The translations under genes were made by a program, and so were the position numbers. DNA of 37,806 nt from Planctomycetota bacterium (GTDB lineage: Bacteria > Planctomycetota > JAJSAM01), in the NCBI GenBank assembly GCA_025459285.1, contig JALOQY010000041.1, forward strand, positions 1-37,806. Direction: 5' to 3'. Under the pieces are notes generated by a model. The model was not told where the DNA came from. It was given only the letters and a program-made list of their open reading frames with translations, and did not search any database. Shown here one piece after another: positions 463 to 37,806 of this stretch (position 1 is the stretch's first letter; each line of letters begins with the position of its first letter).

Positions 463-2457
463 TTGGAAGACACGTACCTCGAGCAGCAGCCGATTCCCGG
501 CTACCGGCTCGAATTACGCCTGGGGACGGGCGGGCAGGCCAGCGTCTACAAGGCGATCCAGCTCTCGATGAACCGGCCGGTGGCCATCAAGATCATCCGG
601 CCCGGCGCCGACGGATCCTCCGTGGAGCTCGGCCGGTTCATGCGCGAGGCGCAGGTCCTCGCCCGCCTGCGCCACGACAACGTCGTGCAGGCCATCGACT
701 TCGGCGAGGTCAGCGGGCACCGGTACTTCGTCATGGAGTTCCTCGAAGGCGAACCGGTGGCGGAGATCCAGAAGCGGCAGGTCTTCCTGCCGGTGGCCCA
801 GAGCCTCGACGTCGCCGCGCAGGTCTGCCGCGCCCTCGACCACGCCTTCCGGTTCAACGTCATCCACCGCGACATCAAGCCCGCCAACATCGTGCTCGTG
901 AACGGGCAGCGGGCCGTGCTCGTGGACTTCGGCCTCGCCCGGCCGGAGCAGAGCGACATGCAGGTCACCATGGCCGGCATGACCGTCGGGACGCCGCACT
1001 ACATGGCGCCGGAGCAGATCCGCGGCGACCCGAACCTCGACACGCGGGTGGACATCTACGCGCTGGGCGGCACGCTGTTCCACATGGTGACCGGCTGCCC
1101 GCCCTTCCCCCACCAGCAGAAGACGCAGATCCTCATCGCTCACCTGAAGGACCCCGTGCTCCTGCCCGAGAAGCTGCCGCAGGAGGTCCCGCAGGACGTC
1201 TTCGCGATCGTGAAGAAAGCCATGCGCAAGGAGCGCGAGAAGCGCTACCAGAACCCCGAGGAGATGCTCCGGGACCTGGAGCGAATCCTCGACCGTCTCG
1301 GTGTGCGCGGGGAGCGCCGCACGGCCCAGGCGGCGGTGAAGATCCTCACTCCCATGGCGCCCTCGGCCGCCCCGGTCGCCGCGCCCTCGGCCCAGTTCCA
1401 GGACCTCGCGGCGAAGGCCGAGGAGATGCAGCGGAAGGCTCGCGAGATCCTCCAGCAGAAGCAGAAGGAACTCGACGAGGCCCTCCGGCGGGTCGCGGAT
1501 CTCGAGCGGAAGCTGCGGGAGGCGGAGGCGAAGGAGACGATGGCCCGCCAGAGGGCCGAGGATCTCGAGCAGCGGCTCATGACCGCGCTCGTGAAAGGGC
1601 GTCCGGCCGCGAAAGAGGAGCCGATTTCCGACGCGATCGCCATCGAGGACGAGGGAGAGGTCATCGAAACGGAGGGCGAGATCGTCGAGGAAGGCGAGGA
1701 CGACGGTGACGTCGAGGAGGTTTCCCCCTCCCCGGCGATCGAGCCGGTACCGGAAGAGGTGTTCGAGCCGGCGTTCGCGCCCGAGGAAGTCGAGTCCGCG
1801 CCTGAACCGGAGCGCCGGGAAGTGCCCATGGTGCGGGTGCCGAAGGGCGCGTTCATCGCGGGGGAGAACGGGGCGAAGGACGCCGATCCCCGGCAGGAGA
1901 TCACCCTCCCGGCCTTCTGGATCGACGTCCACCCGGTCACCAACCGTGACTACCTGGACTTCGTCCGTGCCACCGGCCGGACCCCGCCCGACCACTTCAA
2001 GGGCGGAGTCCCCGCCGAGGAGATGCTCGACCATCCGGTCGTCTGGGTCACCTGGCAGGACGCCACGGACTTCGCGGCCTGGGCGGGCAAGAGGCTGCCG
2101 ACCCGGGTCGAGTGGCAGAAGGCCGCCCGCGGCCCGGACGGCCGGACCTTCCCCTGGGGCAACCAGGTGGACGTCCGCCGATGCAACTGCAAGGAGTCCG
2201 GGCCCGGGAAGACCACGCCAGTGGGTGGATATCCGACCGGCGTCTCTCCCTTCGGCATCCACGATGCGGCCGGCAACGTCGCCGAGTGGGTAGCCGGCGA
2301 GATCATGGTGCCAGGAGCGGACCGGAAGCAGGTCGTGCGAGCGGTGTGCGGCGGCTCCTGGCGAGACCCGCTGGAGAGGTCCCGCTGCGCGTCGAGGCGC
2401 GGCTACCCCGACGGAGGGAAGGCGCCCTACGTCGGCTTCCGCTGCGCCAGGGACTAG
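463..2457 (+). CDS. Ser/Thr protein kinase with coiled coil and C-terminal sulfatase-modifying-factor-like domain
   Basis: 664 residues. The start is TTG at 463, chosen because GGAGGGG lies at 452-458 and the kinase domain begins directly afterwards. Residues ~14-275 are a complete Hanks-type kinase: glycine-rich loop GTGGQASVYK (21-30), K43, HRDIKPAN with D137, DFG at 155-157, APE at 182-184. Residues ~310-380 form a strongly charged coiled coil and ~390-450 an acidic linker. Residues ~455-664 are an FGE/SUMF1-like domain with LPTRVEWQKAARG, FPWGN, GNVAEWV and GFRCARD. No transmembrane segment is visible, so it should be cytoplasmic. The catalytic Cys pair of genuine formylglycine-generating enzymes is missing. 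It is a tandem paralogue of the preceding fragment, and recN starts 1 nt after its stop. Substrates cannot be read from the sequence. Confidence 0.93.
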   Translation: MEDTYLEQQPIPGYRLELRLGTGGQASVYKAIQLSMNRPVAIKIIRPGADGSSVELGRFMREAQVLARLRHDNVVQAIDFGEVSGHRYFVMEFLEGEPVAEIQKRQVFLPVAQSLDVAAQVCRALDHAFRFNVIHRDIKPANIVLVNGQRAVLVDFGLARPEQSDMQVTMAGMTVGTPHYMAPEQIRGDPNLDTRVDIYALGGTLFHMVTGCPPFPHQQKTQILIAHLKDPVLLPEKLPQEVPQDVFAIVKKAMRKEREKRYQNPEEMLRDLERILDRLGVRGERRTAQAAVKILTPMAPSAAPVAAPSAQFQDLAAKAEEMQRKAREILQQKQKELDEALRRVADLERKLREAEAKETMARQRAEDLEQRLMTALVKGRPAAKEEPISDAIAIEDEGEVIETEGEIVEEGEDDGDVEEVSPSPAIEPVPEEVFEPAFAPEEVESAPEPERREVPMVRVPKGAFIAGENGAKDADPRQEITLPAFWIDVHPVTNRDYLDFVRATGRTPPDHFKGGVPAEEMLDHPVVWVTWQDATDFAAWAGKRLPTRVEWQKAARGPDGRTFPWGNQVDVRRCNCKESGPGKTTPVGGYPTGVSPFGIHDAAGNVAEWVAGEIMVPGADRKQVVRAVCGGSWRDPLERSRCASRRGYPDGGKAPYVGFRCARD

Positions 2458-2458
2458 G

Positions 2459-4117
2459 ATGCTCGCGGAACTCCGGATCCGGGACCTCCTGCTCATCGCG
2501 GACCTCTCCCTGTCCTTCTCCCCGGGCTTCAACGTGCTCACCGGGGAAACCGGAGCCGGCAAGTCCCTGATCGCCCAGGCCGTCTCCCTCCTGCTCGGCC
2601 GGCGCGCCGAGGGGGAACTCGTGCGCCGGGGCGCCGAGACCGCGGAGGTCGAAGGGTTGTTCGTCGTAGCCGACGAACCGGCGGTCCGCGAGAGACTCCT
2701 CGCCGCCGGGCTCCCGGCGAGCGACGAGCTGCTGGTCCGCCGGGTCATCCCCGCGGACGGCCGGCAGCGCTGCTTCCTCAACGGGCGGCTCGCCTCGCTT
2801 CCCCTGCTCGCGGAACTGGCGAGGGACCTCGCGAGCTTCGCCGGCCAGCACGAGCACCTCGCGCTCCTCGAGCCCTCGCGCCAGCGCGACATCCTGGACG
2901 ACTTCGGCCGACTCGCCGCGGACCGCGAGGAGATGGCCCGACTCCACGCCGCCGCGGTCGAGGCCTCGGGCCGGCTTTCGGACCTGCGGGAACGGGAGAA
3001 GGACCGCGCGCAGCGCCTCGACTGGCTCCTGTTCCGACTCCGGGAGATCGAGGCCCTCGCCCCCGCGCCGGACGAACTGGACACGCTGGCGCGGGAGATC
3101 GAGCGCCTCCGCCACCTCGGCTTCCTGCTCTTGACGGCCCGCCGGGCGGTGGACGAGCTCTACGAGCGGGACGGGGCGGTCTTCGAGCGGCTCGGCGCCC
3201 TGGCTCGCGATCTGCGCCGGGCGGTGGAGCACGATGGAACGTTCGGCGGCCCGGCGGGGACCGTGGAGGAGGCCGCCGCTCTGATCGCGGAAGTCGCCCG
3301 GGGACTCCGCGATTACGGCGCCGGCGAGGAGACCGCTCCGGAACGCCTCGACGAACTGGCCGGACGCCGCGCCGCCCTCGAAGCACTCGTACGAAAGCAC
3401 GGCATGCCGTTGCCGGAGATCCTCGCCTCGAAGGAGGGCCTGGCCACCGAGGCCGCCGAACTCGCCCGTTTCCCCGAGGCGCTCTCCGAGGCCGAAGCCA
3501 CGCTCGCGAGGGCCCTCTCCGCCTCGCGTCACCGGGCGGAGGCGCTCACGGAGGCGCGCCGGAGGGCCGGCGGGAAGCTCGCGAAGGCGGTCACGGCGGA
3601 GCTCCGGGACCTCGCCATGCCGGGCGCGGCGTTCCGCGTGGACCTCCGGGCGGAGGCCAGGGAGCCGGGCCCCCTCGGCTTCGACGTCGTGGAGTTCTCC
3701 GTGGCCCTGAACCCCGGCGAGGGCGCGCACCCGCTCCGGACGACCGCCTCCGGCGGCGAACTGAGCCGCCTCATGCTCGCGCTCCGGAGGGCCCTCGCCG
3801 GCGTCGGTCCCGTCGGGACCCACGTCTTCGACGAGGTGGACGCGGGCATCGGCGGCGCCCAGGCGGCCCTCGTCGGACGGAAACTCCGGGAGGTCTCCTC
3901 CCATCATCAGGTCCTGTGCATCACCCACCTCCCGCAGATCGCCGGCCTCGCCGACGAGCACTTCCTCGTCGCGAAGCTGGTCGGGGACGGCCGAACGGCG
4001 ACCACCGTCCGGCGGCTCACGGCCGACGAGCGGGTGGAGGAGATCGCTCGAATGCTGGGTGGCGAGACACTGACCGACCGGACGCGGGCCGCCGCCCGCG
4101 AGCTCCTGCGGAGGTGA
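2459..4117 (+). CDS. recN: DNA repair ATPase RecN
   Basis: 552 residues, the usual RecN length. RecN is an SMC-like ATPase acting in recombinational repair of double-strand breaks. Walker A GETGAGKS is at 29-36, close to the N-terminus as in RecN. A long charged helical middle (~150-380) forms the coiled-coil arms. The C-terminal half carries the ABC signature SGGE (431-434), Walker B with D458-E459 in VFDEVDAGIGG, and the H-loop-type CITHLPQIA. The N-terminal LRIRDLLLIADLSLSF is typical of the family. ATG at 2459 comes 1 nt after the stop of the kinase gene, so the two are probably cotranscribed and translationally coupled. The aminopeptidase gene follows 4 nt downstream. No damage-response operator is recognisable upstream. 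Confidence 0.96.
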   Translation: MLAELRIRDLLLIADLSLSFSPGFNVLTGETGAGKSLIAQAVSLLLGRRAEGELVRRGAETAEVEGLFVVADEPAVRERLLAAGLPASDELLVRRVIPADGRQRCFLNGRLASLPLLAELARDLASFAGQHEHLALLEPSRQRDILDDFGRLAADREEMARLHAAAVEASGRLSDLREREKDRAQRLDWLLFRLREIEALAPAPDELDTLAREIERLRHLGFLLLTARRAVDELYERDGAVFERLGALARDLRRAVEHDGTFGGPAGTVEEAAALIAEVARGLRDYGAGEETAPERLDELAGRRAALEALVRKHGMPLPEILASKEGLATEAAELARFPEALSEAEATLARALSASRHRAEALTEARRRAGGKLAKAVTAELRDLAMPGAAFRVDLRAEAREPGPLGFDVVEFSVALNPGEGAHPLRTTASGGELSRLMLALRRALAGVGPVGTHVFDEVDAGIGGAQAALVGRKLREVSSHHQVLCITHLPQIAGLADEHFLVAKLVGDGRTATTVRRLTADERVEEIARMLGGETLTDRTRAAARELLRR

Positions 4118-14891: not shown

Positions 14892-17780
14892 CTACAGGAG
14901 CGCGGTCAGACGGTCGAGGGATGCGAGGCGCACCCGGTAGTTGAAGTGCCATGCCAGGCGGGACAGTGCCGGCGGTGCCGCGCGGACGTCCCCCGCGTAG
15001 CCGAGGGCCAGCACGCCGTAGAGCCGTGTCAGCGCCGGGGCTTTCGGATCGCCCGCCGCGGCAGCCAGCGCCCGCGTGGCGGCTTCTTCCCGAAGGTGAC
15101 CGAGACCGATCGTCGCGGCGGCCTTCACGAAGGGGTCGTTCGAGTCCCGTAGCAGCGCCACGAGACGGTTCGCGGAACCGGACCGCCCCACGAGCGAGAG
15201 CGAAAGCGCCGCCGCCCGGTGGAGAGAGGGGTTTCCCTTCGAGTCGAGGACGTCGTCGATGGCCGCCAGGGCCGCCGGTTCACCGGTCATCGCCGCGGCC
15301 AGGAGGCAGTAACCGCGGAGATCCGGGTCCTCCCCGCGGTCCACGGCCGCGAGGGCGAGGCGCTTCGCCGACCCGATGTCCCCGGCGAGGCCGAGGCCGA
15401 TCGCCATCGCCGCCCGGACGCTCGGGTCCTCCCCGGAACGTTCGAAGGCCCGGACCACGAACGGCGTGAGTTCGGGCGATCGGGTGAGCCCGGCCGCGAG
15501 ACCGGCCCACGCCTTGAGGCGGTGGCTCCGACGTTCGAGGATCTTCCGGATCGCGACGACGGCGTCGGACCCTCCGATCTCCCCGAGACTCGTCAGCGCG
15601 AACGCGGCGACCTGGAGGTCCGGATCGCGGTCCTGCGCCTCGAGGAGCGCCCGGACGGCACCGGAGCGGGCCGCCGCGACCTTCGCCTCTTCCCGCCGGC
15701 TTCGGGCGGTGAGGTCGGCGATCGCCTCCTCCAGAGCCTTCCCCGCTTCCTCGGTCAGCGCGCCGGACGAAAGCCATTCCCGCCGGGCCACGAGGGCCCG
15801 ATCGAGCAGTTCCTGGGCTTCGCCGCGGAAGCGGATCGCTCCGAGGCCGAGGGCCGCGGAGCGCCGGACCTCCGCCGAGCGGTCGACCAGCAGGCGCGCG
15901 AGGGTCCCGGCATTCCCGAGGCGGTTCGCGCGACCGAGCGAGGCGGCGGCCATCGCCCGGACCCGGTCGTCGTCGCGGTCGTCCAGCGCCACGGCGACGA
16001 GCACGCTCCGCGCTTCCTCCTCGCTCGATTCCCCGAGCGCCAGCGCGATCGCTCCCCGGACTTCCGCGGGCTCGCGGTGGTCGAGGAGGACGGACTCCAC
16101 GAAGGCCACGGCGCCGGGGGCGTCGAGGAGCCCGAGCCCCGCGGCGGCGAAGGCCCGGACCTCCGGGTCCTCGTCTTCGTCGGTCACGCAGCGGAGGAAA
16201 ACGGGCGCGATCTCCTTCTCGCCGAGATAGGAAAGCCCGAGCATGGCCGCCTTGCGCACTTCCGGGCTCCGGTCCTTCGTTCCGCGGTAGAGGTCGCCGA
16301 AGACCCCGAGGTCGCCCACCTTCCCGAACGCGAACATCGTCGCGGCCCGCACACCGTCGGAGCGGTCCATGGAGGCGCGGCGCAATGCCGGGAGGATGAG
16401 CGAGGCGCGGAGCGCCCCGAGGGGGTCCGACCGGCGGCCGGCCCCGACGGGAGTGATCGTTCCGCTCTCGTGGCGGCGGAGGAACCGGTCCTTGTTGAAC
16501 TCCCACCAGTACTCCCAGCGCTCCAGCCCCTTCGCGGCGCCGCCGGCGCGGCGGCCCCGATCCTCGGGGGTGGCTTCGCCGCCGGGCGACAGCGGCGGAG
16601 GAGATCCGCCGGGCGCACCGTCGAGACCGCCGGCGGGGCCGCGCGGCGCGGGCGCGGGAGCGGCGCCCCGGCGCCCCGTTTCCGGCGGCGGCGGAGCCGG
16701 TTCATCGGCGCCGGGGCCTTCCTTCGCGCCGCTCCCGCCATCGGCGGAGGGCGTGCTTTCGCCCGGGGGCGTCCCGGGATCCTCGGGCACCGGCTCCGCG
16801 CCCGGGGGGGGCGCGGGCGGAGCCGGCGGCTTCGCGGGCGGCGGCCCGGGAGGGGGCACGACGGGAGGCGTCGTGGTCCCTCCGGGAGGCGCGGCGGGCG
16901 GAGGCGGAGGCTCCGAGGGCGGCGCGGGAGGCAGTGGCGGCTCGCCGGGGGGGGGCTCCTCGGGTGGAGGAAGCGGGTCGGAGGGAGGCGGCTCGGTGGG
17001 AGGCGGCGGCTCCGGGGGCGGTTCGCCGGGATCACCGGGAGGCGGCGGGTCCACCGGGCCCGGTGGGTCGGTCGGCTCGCCGGGGGGAGTCGGATCCCCG
17101 GGCGGCAGGGGCTCGGGGGGCGGCGTCGGCTCGGGGGGCGAAGCCGGCGGCTCCGGGGGGGGCGGCGCCTCCGGGGGGGGCGCCTCCGGGGGGGGCGGAG
17201 TCGTCGGAGTCGTCGGGGGCGGCGGGGGTGGAGGCGGAGTGGCCGGCACCGGAGGAGGGGACTTCGGAGTCACGGGGGGCCGGTCCTGATCTTTCGGACC
17301 GGGCGGAGTGGCCGATCCACCGCCTCCCCCGCCGCTGCCCGGCCCTGCGGGGGCGGGTTCATCGCGACTGCCTTCGCCCGGGGAGGAGGCCGGCGGCGGA
17401 CCGCTGCCAGGAGTCGAGGCCGGAGGCTCCGCGGGCGTCGTGCCGCCGCTTCCGCGTCCCCCGCCGCTGCCGCTGCCCCCCCCGGCCGGCGGGGTGCCGG
17501 CGCCGCCGCCCGCGTCACCCGAGCCCCCGGCCGGGGCGCCCGGTTCCGGCGCCGGAGCGCCGCCACCGCCCGCGGGCGGGTTGCCGGCCGGCGGCGCCCC
17601 GGGCGCGCCCGGAGCCGGCGCGGGCGTTCCGCCGCCGGAAAGACCGCCGTCACCGGTCCCTCCTCCGGAGCCGCCGCGACCGGGCCCCCGGTACTGACCG
17701 GGAAGGCCCTGCCCGAAGGCGAACGCGACGAGGGAGAGGAGAGCGAGGAGGACGAGGAGGGGCAGTGTGATCCGCTTCAT
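14892..17780 (-). CDS. Exported HEAT-repeat protein with giant Pro/Gly-rich N-terminal region
   Basis: 962 residues from ATG at 17780. The start is chosen because it opens with a signal peptide (MKRITLPLLVLLALLSLVAFAFG) and lies ~25 nt after the predicted start point of a good promoter; upstream in-frame sequence runs through that promoter. Residues ~25-410 are almost entirely P, G, E, S, T and A: a Gly-rich half first, then a polyproline-rich half with PPPPEPP-like units. A short WEYWWEFNKDRF motif begins at W422, and ~450-962 are tandem HEAT/PBS-lyase-type helical repeats. The protein is probably periplasmic or surface-associated, with the Pro-rich part acting as a long extended spacer and the HEAT solenoid as a binding platform. 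No enzymatic motif is seen. It is divergent from the cyclophilin gene. Confidence 0.88.
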   Translation of the reverse strand: MKRITLPLLVLLALLSLVAFAFGQGLPGQYRGPGRGGSGGGTGDGGLSGGGTPAPAPGAPGAPPAGNPPAGGGGAPAPEPGAPAGGSGDAGGGAGTPPAGGGSGSGGGRGSGGTTPAEPPASTPGSGPPPASSPGEGSRDEPAPAGPGSGGGGGGSATPPGPKDQDRPPVTPKSPPPVPATPPPPPPPPTTPTTPPPPEAPPPEAPPPPEPPASPPEPTPPPEPLPPGDPTPPGEPTDPPGPVDPPPPGDPGEPPPEPPPPTEPPPSDPLPPPEEPPPGEPPLPPAPPSEPPPPPAAPPGGTTTPPVVPPPGPPPAKPPAPPAPPPGAEPVPEDPGTPPGESTPSADGGSGAKEGPGADEPAPPPPETGRRGAAPAPAPRGPAGGLDGAPGGSPPPLSPGGEATPEDRGRRAGGAAKGLERWEYWWEFNKDRFLRRHESGTITPVGAGRRSDPLGALRASLILPALRRASMDRSDGVRAATMFAFGKVGDLGVFGDLYRGTKDRSPEVRKAAMLGLSYLGEKEIAPVFLRCVTDEDEDPEVRAFAAAGLGLLDAPGAVAFVESVLLDHREPAEVRGAIALALGESSEEEARSVLVAVALDDRDDDRVRAMAAASLGRANRLGNAGTLARLLVDRSAEVRRSAALGLGAIRFRGEAQELLDRALVARREWLSSGALTEEAGKALEEAIADLTARSRREEAKVAAARSGAVRALLEAQDRDPDLQVAAFALTSLGEIGGSDAVVAIRKILERRSHRLKAWAGLAAGLTRSPELTPFVVRAFERSGEDPSVRAAMAIGLGLAGDIGSAKRLALAAVDRGEDPDLRGYCLLAAAMTGEPAALAAIDDVLDSKGNPSLHRAAALSLSLVGRSGSANRLVALLRDSNDPFVKAAATIGLGHLREEAATRALAAAAGDPKAPALTRLYGVLALGYAGDVRAAPPALSRLAWHFNYRVRLASLDRLTALL
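16580..17700 (-). repeat. Low-complexity Pro/Gly-encoding tract inside the HEAT gene
   Basis: About 1.1 kb of near-pure GC sequence made of imperfect repeats of short GGN and CCN units (on the plus strand many runs such as ggcggcggctcc and gggggg). It encodes the N-terminal 25-410 region of the HEAT protein. Frame is kept throughout despite the repeats, so it is real coding sequence. Such tracts are prone to slippage and to assembly error, so its length should be treated as provisional. Confidence 0.8.
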
Positions 17781-17811
17781 ACGCGTCGGGGCTCCGCAGG
17801 TTGTGAGATCG

Positions 17812-17839
17812 AGTCTACCCCGGTCCGCCATCCTGTCAA
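17812..17839 (-). promoter_or_regulatory. Sigma70-type promoter for the HEAT-repeat gene
   Basis: On the minus strand TTGACA (17839-17834) and TAGACT (17817-17812) are separated by 16 bp. The -35 is a full consensus match and the -10 keeps the TAnnnT pattern. The expected transcript start near 17805 gives a 5' leader of about 25 nt before ATG at 17780. Confidence 0.6.
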
Positions 17840-17856
17840 CCGGTCCGGCGGACCGG
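17840..17856. promoter_or_regulatory. Perfect 7-bp dyad between divergent promoters
   Basis: CCGGTCC-ggc-GGACCGG is a perfect inverted repeat. It starts immediately next to the -35 box of the minus-strand HEAT promoter and ends 4 bp before the TATAAT of the plus-strand cyclophilin gene. Its position suits an operator controlling both directions. An extruding hairpin or chance in GC-rich DNA cannot be excluded. Confidence 0.4.
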
Positions 17857-17860
17857 ACGG

Positions 17861-17866
17861 TATAAT
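17861..17866 (+). promoter_or_regulatory. Consensus -10 box directly before the cyclophilin start
   Basis: TATAAT lies 6 nt before ATG at 17873, an exact match in otherwise GC-rich DNA. A transcript starting 7 nt after it would begin at the A of the start codon, i.e. a leaderless mRNA. No clear -35 is seen (the expected place is occupied by the dyad), and there is no Shine-Dalgarno sequence. Confidence 0.45.
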
Positions 17867-17872
17867 CGGACC

Positions 17873-33533: not shown

Positions 33534-33539
33534 TACTAT
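33534..33539 (+). promoter_or_regulatory. Possible -10 box for the amidase gene
   Basis: TACTAT lies 37 nt before ATG 33577, with GGAGG 8 nt before the start codon. A -35 is not recognisable, so the assignment rests on position and the TAnnnT-like pattern only. Confidence 0.3.
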
Positions 33540-33576
33540 GCTTTTGCGACGCACTCTCTTTACAGGAGGGCTGAAC

Positions 33577-34155
33577 ATGGTTGGCGGCAACGGCGATGGC
33601 TTCCCGGGTTCGAGGTGGATCCCCGCGCATTCCGACCGGTTCACCGCCGGCACCTCCCGCACCATCGAGGAGATCGTCCTCCACATCACCGAGGGCGGCA
33701 CGGACAAGGCCGAGATCACCGCGCAGAACGCGTTCGGCGGGCCGAAGTACCTGCAGGGCGGCCACTGGAAGAACCAGGCGGCGCACTACGTCGTGGGGCG
33801 GGACGGAACCGTGGTCCAGTGCGTGCGCCACAAGGACATCGCCCACCACGCCGGTCCCGCGAACGGCTGGACGATCGGCATCGAGCACAACACGCGCACG
33901 GGCAAGGACTCGAAACTGACGGCCGCGCAATACCTGAAGTCGGCGGAGCTCGTGGTCTGGCTCTGCCGGAAGTTCGGCCTCCCGCCCACGAGGAACAACA
34001 TCAGCGGCCATTCGGAGGCCGATCCGGGCAGCTCCCACTCGAGCTGCCCCGGACGGGTGCTGAAGTGGCCGACGTACATGGCCGCCATCGACCATGTCCT
34101 CGCGGTCGCGCAGGGGCGCGCGCCGATGCGCCTGTGGGATGACGAGTCGGTCTGA
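33577..34155 (+). CDS. N-acetylmuramoyl-L-alanine amidase (Amidase_2/PGRP type)
   Basis: 192 residues from ATG at 33577, supported by ACAGGAGGG upstream. Amidase_2 enzymes use zinc to cut the bond between N-acetylmuramic acid and L-alanine in peptidoglycan. The visible zinc ligands are H36 (EIVLHITEG), H145 (SGHSEADPG) and C157 (SSCPGR), in the usual order. HYVVGRDGTVVQCV and the HHAGPANGWTIGIEH segment are also diagnostic. No signal peptide is visible, so export by another route, lysis-linked release or intracellular recycling must be considered. It stands alone between two minus-strand genes. The absence of a cell-wall-binding domain and the small size recall phage or recycling amidases, but no phage genes are nearby. 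Confidence 0.93.
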   Translation: MVGGNGDGFPGSRWIPAHSDRFTAGTSRTIEEIVLHITEGGTDKAEITAQNAFGGPKYLQGGHWKNQAAHYVVGRDGTVVQCVRHKDIAHHAGPANGWTIGIEHNTRTGKDSKLTAAQYLKSAELVVWLCRKFGLPPTRNNISGHSEADPGSSHSSCPGRVLKWPTYMAAIDHVLAVAQGRAPMRLWDDESV

Positions 34156-34166
34156 CCGCGACCCGC

Positions 34167-36260: not shown

Positions 36261-37238
36261 ATGGAGAGGAACGCCGGTTTTGCCGCGGGACGCGCTGCCG
36301 AGATCGCCGGGCTTTCGCGCGAGGAACTCGCGCGCCTCGAGACCGAGGGCATCCTCGTCCCGTCCCGGGACGCGAAGGGGAACCGCTCCTACTCCCGGGA
36401 CGACGTCCGCCGGGCGTGCGAGCTCGCGGGCCGCGCGGTCCGCCGCTCGGTGGCCGTCGTGAACCAGAAGGGCGGCGTGGGCAAGACGACCACCGCGTTC
36501 AACCTCGCGGCGGCCTTCATCCTGGAGGGCCGCCGGGTCCTCGCCGTCGACCTCGACTCCCAGGCGAGTCTGACCCGCTCCTTCGGCCTCATCAGCGAGA
36601 ACTTCGAGAAGACCTCCCACGACCTCCTCCTCTCCGACCAGGTCGCGGCGGAGGATGTCATCGTCGAGACCCTCTACGACGGCCTCGACATCGTCCCGGC
36701 GGACATCCGCCTCGCCAGCGCCGACGTGCTTCTGCGCGAGGTGATCATGCGCGAGCGGATCCTCGCGACGAAACTGGAGCCATTGGCTCCTCTTTATGAC
36801 CTGATGCTCTTCGACTGCCCGCCGAACCTCTCGACGATCACGATCAACGCCCTCGTGGCCGCGGACACCGCGGTCGTCCCCCTGGAGACGCAGTTCTACT
36901 CCATCAAGGCGGTGGAGGACCTCGCGCGGACCTTCAACCTCCTCGCCACGCGGATGGGCCACGCCCTCGACGTGCTGATGCTCCCGACGAAGATCGACCT
37001 CCGGGTGAAGATGTCGAGGGAGGTGCTCGCCACCATGGAGCGGAACTTCGCGGGGCGGTTCCTCACCCCGATCCGGACCGACGCGAACCTGATGAAGGCC
37101 CCGATGCTCCATGAACCGGCGGTGGTGGCCTTCCCCGCCTCCCGCGGCTCGCGGGACTACCGCCGCGCGGCCCGCGAGATCCTCGAGCGCCCGCGGCCCC
37201 CCGGCCAGGCCGCCCTCGCCTCCCCCCCGCTCGTCTGA
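36261..37238 (+). CDS. ParA/Soj-type ATPase with N-terminal MerR-like helix-turn-helix
   Basis: 325 residues. Residues ~5-56 read as a MerR-type winged helix (GRAAEIAGLSREELARLETEGILV, then NRSYSRDDVRRA). Residues ~62-310 are a ParA ATPase: deviant Walker A KGGVGKTT (70-77), VDLDSQASLT, and Walker B LMLFDCPPN. The family partitions DNA or positions large complexes by ATP-dependent binding to the nucleoid. No ParB gene or parS-like site is visible, and the built-in DNA-binding domain could replace a partner or autoregulate. ATG at 36261 has no Shine-Dalgarno; TAGCAT ends 6 nt before it, as in the cyclophilin gene, hinting at a leaderless mRNA. It is divergent from the sigma54 activator. Confidence 0.92.
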   Translation: MERNAGFAAGRAAEIAGLSREELARLETEGILVPSRDAKGNRSYSRDDVRRACELAGRAVRRSVAVVNQKGGVGKTTTAFNLAAAFILEGRRVLAVDLDSQASLTRSFGLISENFEKTSHDLLLSDQVAAEDVIVETLYDGLDIVPADIRLASADVLLREVIMRERILATKLEPLAPLYDLMLFDCPPNLSTITINALVAADTAVVPLETQFYSIKAVEDLARTFNLLATRMGHALDVLMLPTKIDLRVKMSREVLATMERNFAGRFLTPIRTDANLMKAPMLHEPAVVAFPASRGSRDYRRAAREILERPRPPGQAALASPPLV

Positions 37239-37304
37239 TCCGCTGCTCCCGAGCAACTCCGGGCGTCAATCCGGATCGACGAGACGTCGAGAGCGCGGGA
37301 CAAC

Positions 37305-37320
37305 CGGACGGACGGACGGA
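37305..37320 (+). repeat. (CGGA)4 microsatellite after the ParA-like gene
   Basis: Four perfect tandem copies of CGGA begin ~67 nt after the stop codon. It is non-coding and short; no function is evident. Confidence 0.6.
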
Positions 37321-37322
37321 CC

Positions 37323-37346
37323 GCCGGAATCGCCGCCCGGCCTTTT
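37323..37346 (+). terminator. Candidate intrinsic terminator of the ParA-like gene
   Basis: GCCGG (37323-37327) and CCGGC (37337-37341) form a 5-bp stem with a 9-nt loop, followed by C and TTTT (37343-37346). The stem is short and the U-run brief, but the position 85 nt after the stop codon is suitable. Confidence 0.4.
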
Positions 37347-37391
37347 GGGATAACGAGTTACGGCCGCCCCTGCTCCAGCGGCACGGACCTT

Positions 37392-37806
37392 GCTCTTCGA
37401 GGGGCCTCCTCCTACGTCGCACTCGGCCGCTGCCGCCGGCGACGTGCCGGTGACCGGACGGGCGCGTAGGAGCCCCAAGAGCGGCCCCGCTTCGGCGGGG
37501 TCGCTCCCTTTCGGGGGCGAAGCGCGGGCCGCTCGGTTACTGAGCTTCGAAGACTTCGGGTGGCGAGAGGATCCTCTCTGCCCATCGCCCTCCCGCCGCG
37601 CCGCAGGCGCGCGCCGCCCATCAGGCGGCGAGGCGAGGGAGGCCAACGTGTCACGGCCGATGCGGGGGAGGGACCGCCTTCCCCGCCAGCAAAGTCAGCG
37701 CGGGCCGAACGAACCTCGACGTGGATTGCGGGCCTGCGCCCGCGCTGGAAAAATAGGGTCGTACCCCAGATGTCCAGGGGACGAGCGGGCGGCTACTTCG
37801 CGAAGG
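37392..37806. ncRNA. Densely structured non-coding region, unidentified
   Basis: No credible protein frame crosses this stretch; the minus-strand frames are Arg/Pro/Ala-rich with no recognisable motif. Clear stems follow one another. (1) GCTCTT, GGGG and CTCCTACG (37392-37416) pair with CGTAGGAGCCCCAAGAGC (37465-37482), 18 bp with two bulges. (2) 37479-37506 is a 12-bp stem with a TTCG tetraloop. (3) An enclosing stem, CCTCCCGCC (37589-37597) with GGC and GGGAGG (37632-37642), holds hairpins 37598-37610 and 37613-37629. (4) CAGCGCGGGC (37696-37705) pairs with GCCCGCGCTG (37738-37747). The strand is undetermined. I found no tmRNA, RNase P, SRP or tRNA signature. It continues to the window edge and may be incomplete. 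Confidence 0.45.

Follow-up and report, generated by a model that had tools for sequence, protein, structure and literature searches.

The final 415 nucleotides of the DNA analysed here raise the question of what a heavily structured segment beyond the last gene represents. The stretch as a whole (the window) is 37,806 nucleotides long and forms positions 1-37806 of contig C311, a contig end in G000, a Planctomycetota MAG of 5.0 Mb in 534 contigs. A first-pass annotation had read 37392-37806 as a single structured RNA with mutually exclusive folds. Re-checking the pairing confirms every stem that it named: a bulged helix of 18 pairs with two bulges (37392-37416 with 37465-37482), a 12-bp hairpin with a UUCG loop (37479-37506), an outer stem enclosing two hairpins (37589-37642), a further stem at 37696-37747, and an alternative pairing of 37479-37494 with 37518-37534 (16 pairs, one bulge). 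The segment is indeed non-coding, and the whole of it folds better than dinucleotide-shuffled sequence (z = -2.81, 1 of 100 shuffles as good); no Rfam family reaches threshold anywhere in the window, in agreement with the earlier failure to match it to a known structured RNA. The statement that this is the only gene-free stretch of more than 300 bp is doubtful, since our crude codon-usage gene caller also leaves 16791-17872 (1.1 kb) without a gene.

The reading as one 415-nt RNA fails on comparison with the rest of the genome. The stretch splits at position 37533, and its last two stems are part of a mobile repeat that is present about 65 times across G000. A BLASTN search of 37200-37806 against its own genome returned about 35 other places on both strands at 71-85% identity, which match solely from 37598 to about 37752, and a covariance model (CM R1), built from 22 copies with the window copy excluded, recovers 37533-37749 on the forward strand at 63.0 bits (E = 7.1e-11). 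In our proposal, 37533-37749 carries the decayed copy of a mobile structured DNA repeat that is non-autonomous and MITE-like, keeps its core constant and can exchange its ends; we give this reading a probability of about 0.82. The separate stems at 37392-37534 (the bulged helix, the UUCG hairpin and the alternative pairing) are not part of the repeat; own-genome BLAST of this part gave one short, weak match (37428-37465, E = 4e-4). Folded alone, the upstream hairpins (37380-37532) have z = -2.16 and the repeat copy has z = -0.72, with 45 of 200 shuffles as good, a weak value that we attribute to decay; an intact copy elsewhere has z = -7.85, with 0 of 200 shuffles as good. The upstream neighbour, on the same strand at 36261-37238, is a ParA-like ATPase gene with an N-terminal MerR-like segment, called from its ORF and codon usage and identified by reading its sequence. 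That the UUCG-capped hairpin downstream of it could be a terminator is only a guess; this hairpin has no T-run.

The repeat unit is about 195 bp long, or about 255-277 bp in a long variant that carries a 50-70-nt branched extension inside hairpin D, and is non-coding, with no gene called inside it. In copies aligned with their flanks it opens with TGTACTAC(a/t)(c/g)ACC(c/t)TC... and continues into a 5' arm; the family consensus then has hairpins B (GCGCC-n-GGCGC) and C (CGCCGCC-n-GGCGGCG), followed by GAGGAGGGGGA, a linker able to pair with the 5' arm; beyond it come hairpins D and E (the latter GCGGGGGAGG-ATCTG-CCTCCCCCGC) and, at the 3' side, hairpin F of about 20 bp, finishing ...CGCTGTG. 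The window copy shows the same order on the forward strand. Its 5' arm (TTACTGAGCTTCGAAGACTTCG..., 37533-37597) has an extra segment relative to the other copies in an alignment of 29; its core (37598-37686) is made up of hairpin B (GCGCC-GCA-GGCGC, 37598-37610), hairpin C (CGCCGCC-CATCA-GGCGGCG, 37612-37630), the purine-rich linker, a partly decayed hairpin D (GGCC...GGCC, 37641-37658) and hairpin E (GCGGGGGAGG-GACCG-CCTTCCCCGC, 37662-37686). The long terminal hairpin F (37696-37747), which had been annotated as the fourth stem, forms the 3' end of the element according to the alignment, the end profile and the pairing check. The core alignment and a DNA search through 199 Planctomycetota genomes place the core also in a distant family, represented by G135. 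The window copy resembles that version in its CATCA loop of hairpin C, common to the distant-family copies, in CGTGTC in hairpin D and in GGGAGGGACCGCC in hairpin E, and it therefore represents a divergent subfamily. One truncated copy elsewhere in the genome (L040:1992-2096, contig C362) carries the 3' arm of hairpin E (CTGCCTCCCCCGCCCTCAAG) in three tandem repeats.

With a cut-off of 40 bits and weak reverse-strand palindrome echoes excluded, the first 150 CM candidates scored per genome gave lower bounds on the counts: at least 67 places in G000 (about 65 copies, that in the window included) and at least 47 (about 45 copies) in G001, which represents another genus of the same family (f1) and is the closest relative with matches; in G002, from a third genus of this family, there was no copy among the candidates scored. 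The genomes compared are fragmented MAGs.

That the repeat moves or has moved is well supported: it displays the exact ends, the occupied and empty sites and the independent amplification by which mobile elements are generally recognised. Over about 60 insertion sites its ends are sharp to a single base: information per base climbs at the 5' end (0.05 to 0.95 bits) and drops at the 3' end (1.88 to 0.13 bits). Nearly all of the 95 copies viewed in context are intergenic (all but one lie between genes called by the crude codon-usage caller), and the orientation of the flanking genes is random: (-,-) 20, (+,-) 18, (+,+) 18 and (-,+) 15. Flank-only queries, which avoid the swamping of element-wide queries by other copies, identified an empty site at the junction of glyQ and a TPR/HEAT-repeat gene, where a G000 copy directly follows the glyQ stop codon and the junctions of G001 and G002 are empty, the two genes overlapping in G002 (ATGCGTAG); this lone empty site is compatible also with precise deletion. 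The gene that follows seems to take its start codon region from this same copy (L087:2001-2193, contig C494), its predicted start lying 12 bp inside the element. When 58 loci in G000 are compared with 40 in G001, just one pair of loci has orthologous genes alongside (aroB-like), and the two copies at this pair point in opposite directions. A tree built from 62 copies has one switch of genome label, where shuffles give 20.9, with the G000 and G001 copies forming separate clades, which indicates that amplification (or homogenisation) took place within each genome after the two genera had diverged.

Two hallmarks of many transposons are not seen. Among 42 copies with both flanks, matches of 1-12 bp that would mark a target duplication are no commoner than in shuffled flanks, and the TGTACTAC...CGCTGTG ends are not inverted repeats in the family of the window; their absence would suit a single-strand mechanism. 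All seven pairs of closely spaced copies (below 2.6 kb; contigs C20, C33 and C263 of G000 and C110, C144, C237 and C249 of G001) are convergent, a forward copy followed by a reverse copy with the 3' hairpins facing each other around ordinary host genes; wider pairs are mixed. The chance of seven in seven is (1/4)^7, or about 6e-5, for a distance cut chosen after seeing the data, and simple random insertion does not explain the arrangement. A composite transposon or gene cassette was rejected as an explanation of the close pairs: the two copies of a pair resemble each other no more than randomly chosen copies do, and they enclose ordinary host genes.

The proposal of exchangeable ends comes from the distant relatives. 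When the 199 genomes were searched with an intact copy, real matches were found only in G000, G001 and G135, the last from another family of the phylum, with short, chance-like matches in four other genomes. The matches in G135 lie at four places, are 80-82% identical and cover the core only; the copies score 65-69 bits with the CM. A 327-kb sample of G135 (6.5%) holds at least 15 copies, which extrapolates to roughly 200 genome-wide, and their identity of 94-99% suggests that they are likely recent or active. They retain a core of about 85 nt, including the purine linker, but carry other arms. Some have the ends TTATACC...GGTATAT, imperfect inverted repeats (TATACCGCACGCGGGC / TATACCTCGCGCGCCC), and the unit of this genome folds with z = -5.46. 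At least two further arm types surround the same core in G135, one of which ends TAGACTCCTCG...CGAGGAGTATA, with ends that pair with each other (L176:2691-2775, L176:17117-17205 and L167:4258-4343). Searches of phages, plasmids and IMG/VR gave no match for either element type.

Paired changes, detailed below, maintain the hairpin structure of the repeat. We propose that copies are moved in trans by a putative transposase or other recombinase, which would recognise the ends of the element, probably in hairpin form; structure would be selected in source copies and would decay after insertion. A Y1_Tnp family search of the three genomes of the family found no transposase or autonomous parent for the element: the sole Y1 (HUH) transposase gene in each of G000, G001 and G002 has no copy adjoining it (no CM match at L060, L146 and L147). 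In G000 this gene (L060, contig C321) lies between inverted copies of a different repeat, AGGGGACGTACGTACCTTTTCACCTTT; at L077 that repeat directly adjoins a copy of the present element. For G135, the TATACC/GGTATA ends, which resemble terminal inverted repeats, suggest a DDE transposase.

The variety of ends allows a bolder reading, which we put forward tentatively as a possibility. The core (hairpins B and C, the linker, and hairpins D and E) may function autonomously as a module, in the form of RNA or of single-stranded DNA, and spread across Planctomycetota in several mobile guises with at least four sets of ends; it would thus be a new class of modular mobile element in place of an ordinary MITE family. 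The ends found joined to it are TGTACTAC...CGCTGTG in the family of the window and, in G135, TTATACC...GGTATA, TAGACTCCTCG...CGAGGAGTATA and a third arm type.

It is also possible, though we regard it as unlikely, that the core is a functional RNA, for instance a multi-copy sRNA or a protein-binding RNA, and that mobility is secondary. The compensatory base changes that the first-pass annotation had looked to relatives to supply are present in the dispersed repeat: a manual structure placed on an unfitted MAFFT alignment has 12 double-sided cells where shuffles give 3.8, and 0 of 500 shuffles are as high. Most of these lie in hairpin D, the most covarying hairpin of the family, whose stem occurs as GGCCGC/GCGGCC, GACCGCC/GGCGGTC, GGGGGCC/GGCCCCC, GGCCGCG/CGCGGCC and other versions; hairpin C contributes a C-G to G-C double change across the two families (CG 17, GC 6). 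Together with the conserved forward-strand G.U pairs in the outer stem and hairpin F and the very low folding energy, a core structure kept across two families is what a functional RNA would be expected to show. The covariation supports one fold, but palindrome maintenance at the DNA level would give the same sign; since kinship of the copies inflates covariation and template switching keeps palindromes, paired changes alone are no proof of RNA. Outside the outer stem, stem mutations in 62 near-full copies produce similar numbers of G.T (73) and A.C (60) mismatches and thus reveal no strand-specific RNA selection on single copies, as would follow if selection on structure acts in the source copies alone and inserted copies are left to drift. 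Both strands fold about equally well, orientation to genes is random, many copies are truncated, and no sigma-70-like promoter was found in the window stretch. Rfam yielded no family for the repeat at gathering or relaxed thresholds, the relaxed scan of intact copies returning one group II intron inserted in a copy and chance matches.

An improbable explanation is that the copies are gene-end hairpins of the REP/BIME kind, serving as transcription terminators or mRNA stabilisers. Stop codons are indeed closer to the copies than start codons are (median distances of 50 and 112 bp; p = 0.001), and the copies end in a strong 3' hairpin, but longer upstream regions alone could give the difference in distance, the copies do not favour the strand of the gene before them, they also occur between divergent genes, and hairpin F is not followed by a T-run. 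A cis-regulatory leader or terminator was rejected on account of the random orientation.

Copying of a structured RNA by a group II intron reverse transcriptase, followed by its integration as a SINE-like retroposon, is a distinctly improbable origin. The multi-domain, RNA-like fold with its strong 3' hairpin and the existence of 5'-truncated copies (L122, L126) would suit it, and a group II intron with a reverse transcriptase gene does sit in one copy (L091:2001-3098, contig C177; RF00029, 56 bits, minus strand 2089-2165; reverse transcriptase gene 2178-3098). That intron, however, interrupts the copy after hairpin C and looks like an insertion into the element, not its source; 3'-truncated copies are common too (L043, L047, L048), and the ends of the G135 relative are typical of DNA transposons.

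The reading from which this work started, one regulatory RNA with mutually exclusive folds at 37392-37806, is highly improbable: the competing pairings exist, and the entire stretch folds better than its shuffles, but the competing stems fall outside the conserved element, which does not contain the proposed switch, they are without usable relatives, the element boundary at 37533 divides the stretch in two, and random orientation and the drift of single copies argue against a riboswitch-like locus.

Our preferred reading, a non-autonomous MITE-like repeat, can be set beside known systems, although no described family in the literature searched corresponds to this repeat. Bacterial MITEs such as RUP, NEMIS/Correia, ERIC/IRU, YPAL and Nezha, as defined in PMC3733652, are likewise elements of 70-300 bp that are non-coding, intergenic, structured, dispersed and apparently mobile (PMC3733652), and the G135 relative shares their inverted-repeat-like ends. 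The family of the window, in contrast, has neither terminal inverted repeats nor a visible target duplication, which are two defining MITE features; it has six hairpins where MITEs mostly have one long stem, and the Y1_Tnp search found no parent transposon. The repeat is also like bcr1 and the related repeats of Bacillus cereus, which are 100-400 bp long (PMC6542083, PMC2267715), in being restricted to a group, in its tens of copies per genome, in a predicted common secondary structure and in its mobile features. Mobility of the bcr repeats is tied to a TTTAT motif (PMC6542083), which the present repeat, from an unrelated phylum, does not have. REP/BIME sequences, dispersed intergenic palindromes with GTAG or CGTC tags and RAYT transposases, have been reported also from Planctomycetes (PMC3733652). 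REPs are single hairpins of 20-40 bp, whereas the unit here is a 195-bp multi-hairpin structure with fixed ends; the reverse complement of its 5' end reads GTAGTACA, but does not stand beside a single hairpin. A REP/RAYT system was rejected, as the Y1 transposase genes have no adjoining copy and all the REP features tested fail. The modular make-up invites a further comparison, made by description. The BOX elements of Streptococcus pneumoniae are intergenic repeats of modular composition, and the present repeat differs from them in joining a constant core to different ends.

G000 contains other repeated sequences. A second palindromic repeat (AGCAGCCCGTCGGGG...CCCCGACGGGCTGCT), about 65 bp long and likewise dispersed, occurs in copies that are 80-98% identical (L018:4001-4067, L045:1842-1909, L083:3515-3578, L087:3117-3185 and L090:1864-1932). 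The amidase-like gene at window positions 33539-34165 has a paralogue, 88.7% identical, at L088:2150-2775 (contig C342), and the element copy at L088 ends 4 bp from this duplicated stretch.

To our knowledge, the repeats of Planctomycetota have been little described. A constant, covarying core with different ends is an unusual arrangement, and it also carries a warning: folding-based searches for RNA in GC-rich genomes will catch repeats of this kind. The arrangement lets one ask whether the core is what is selected, as RNA or as single-stranded DNA, with the ends choosing the enzyme that moves it.
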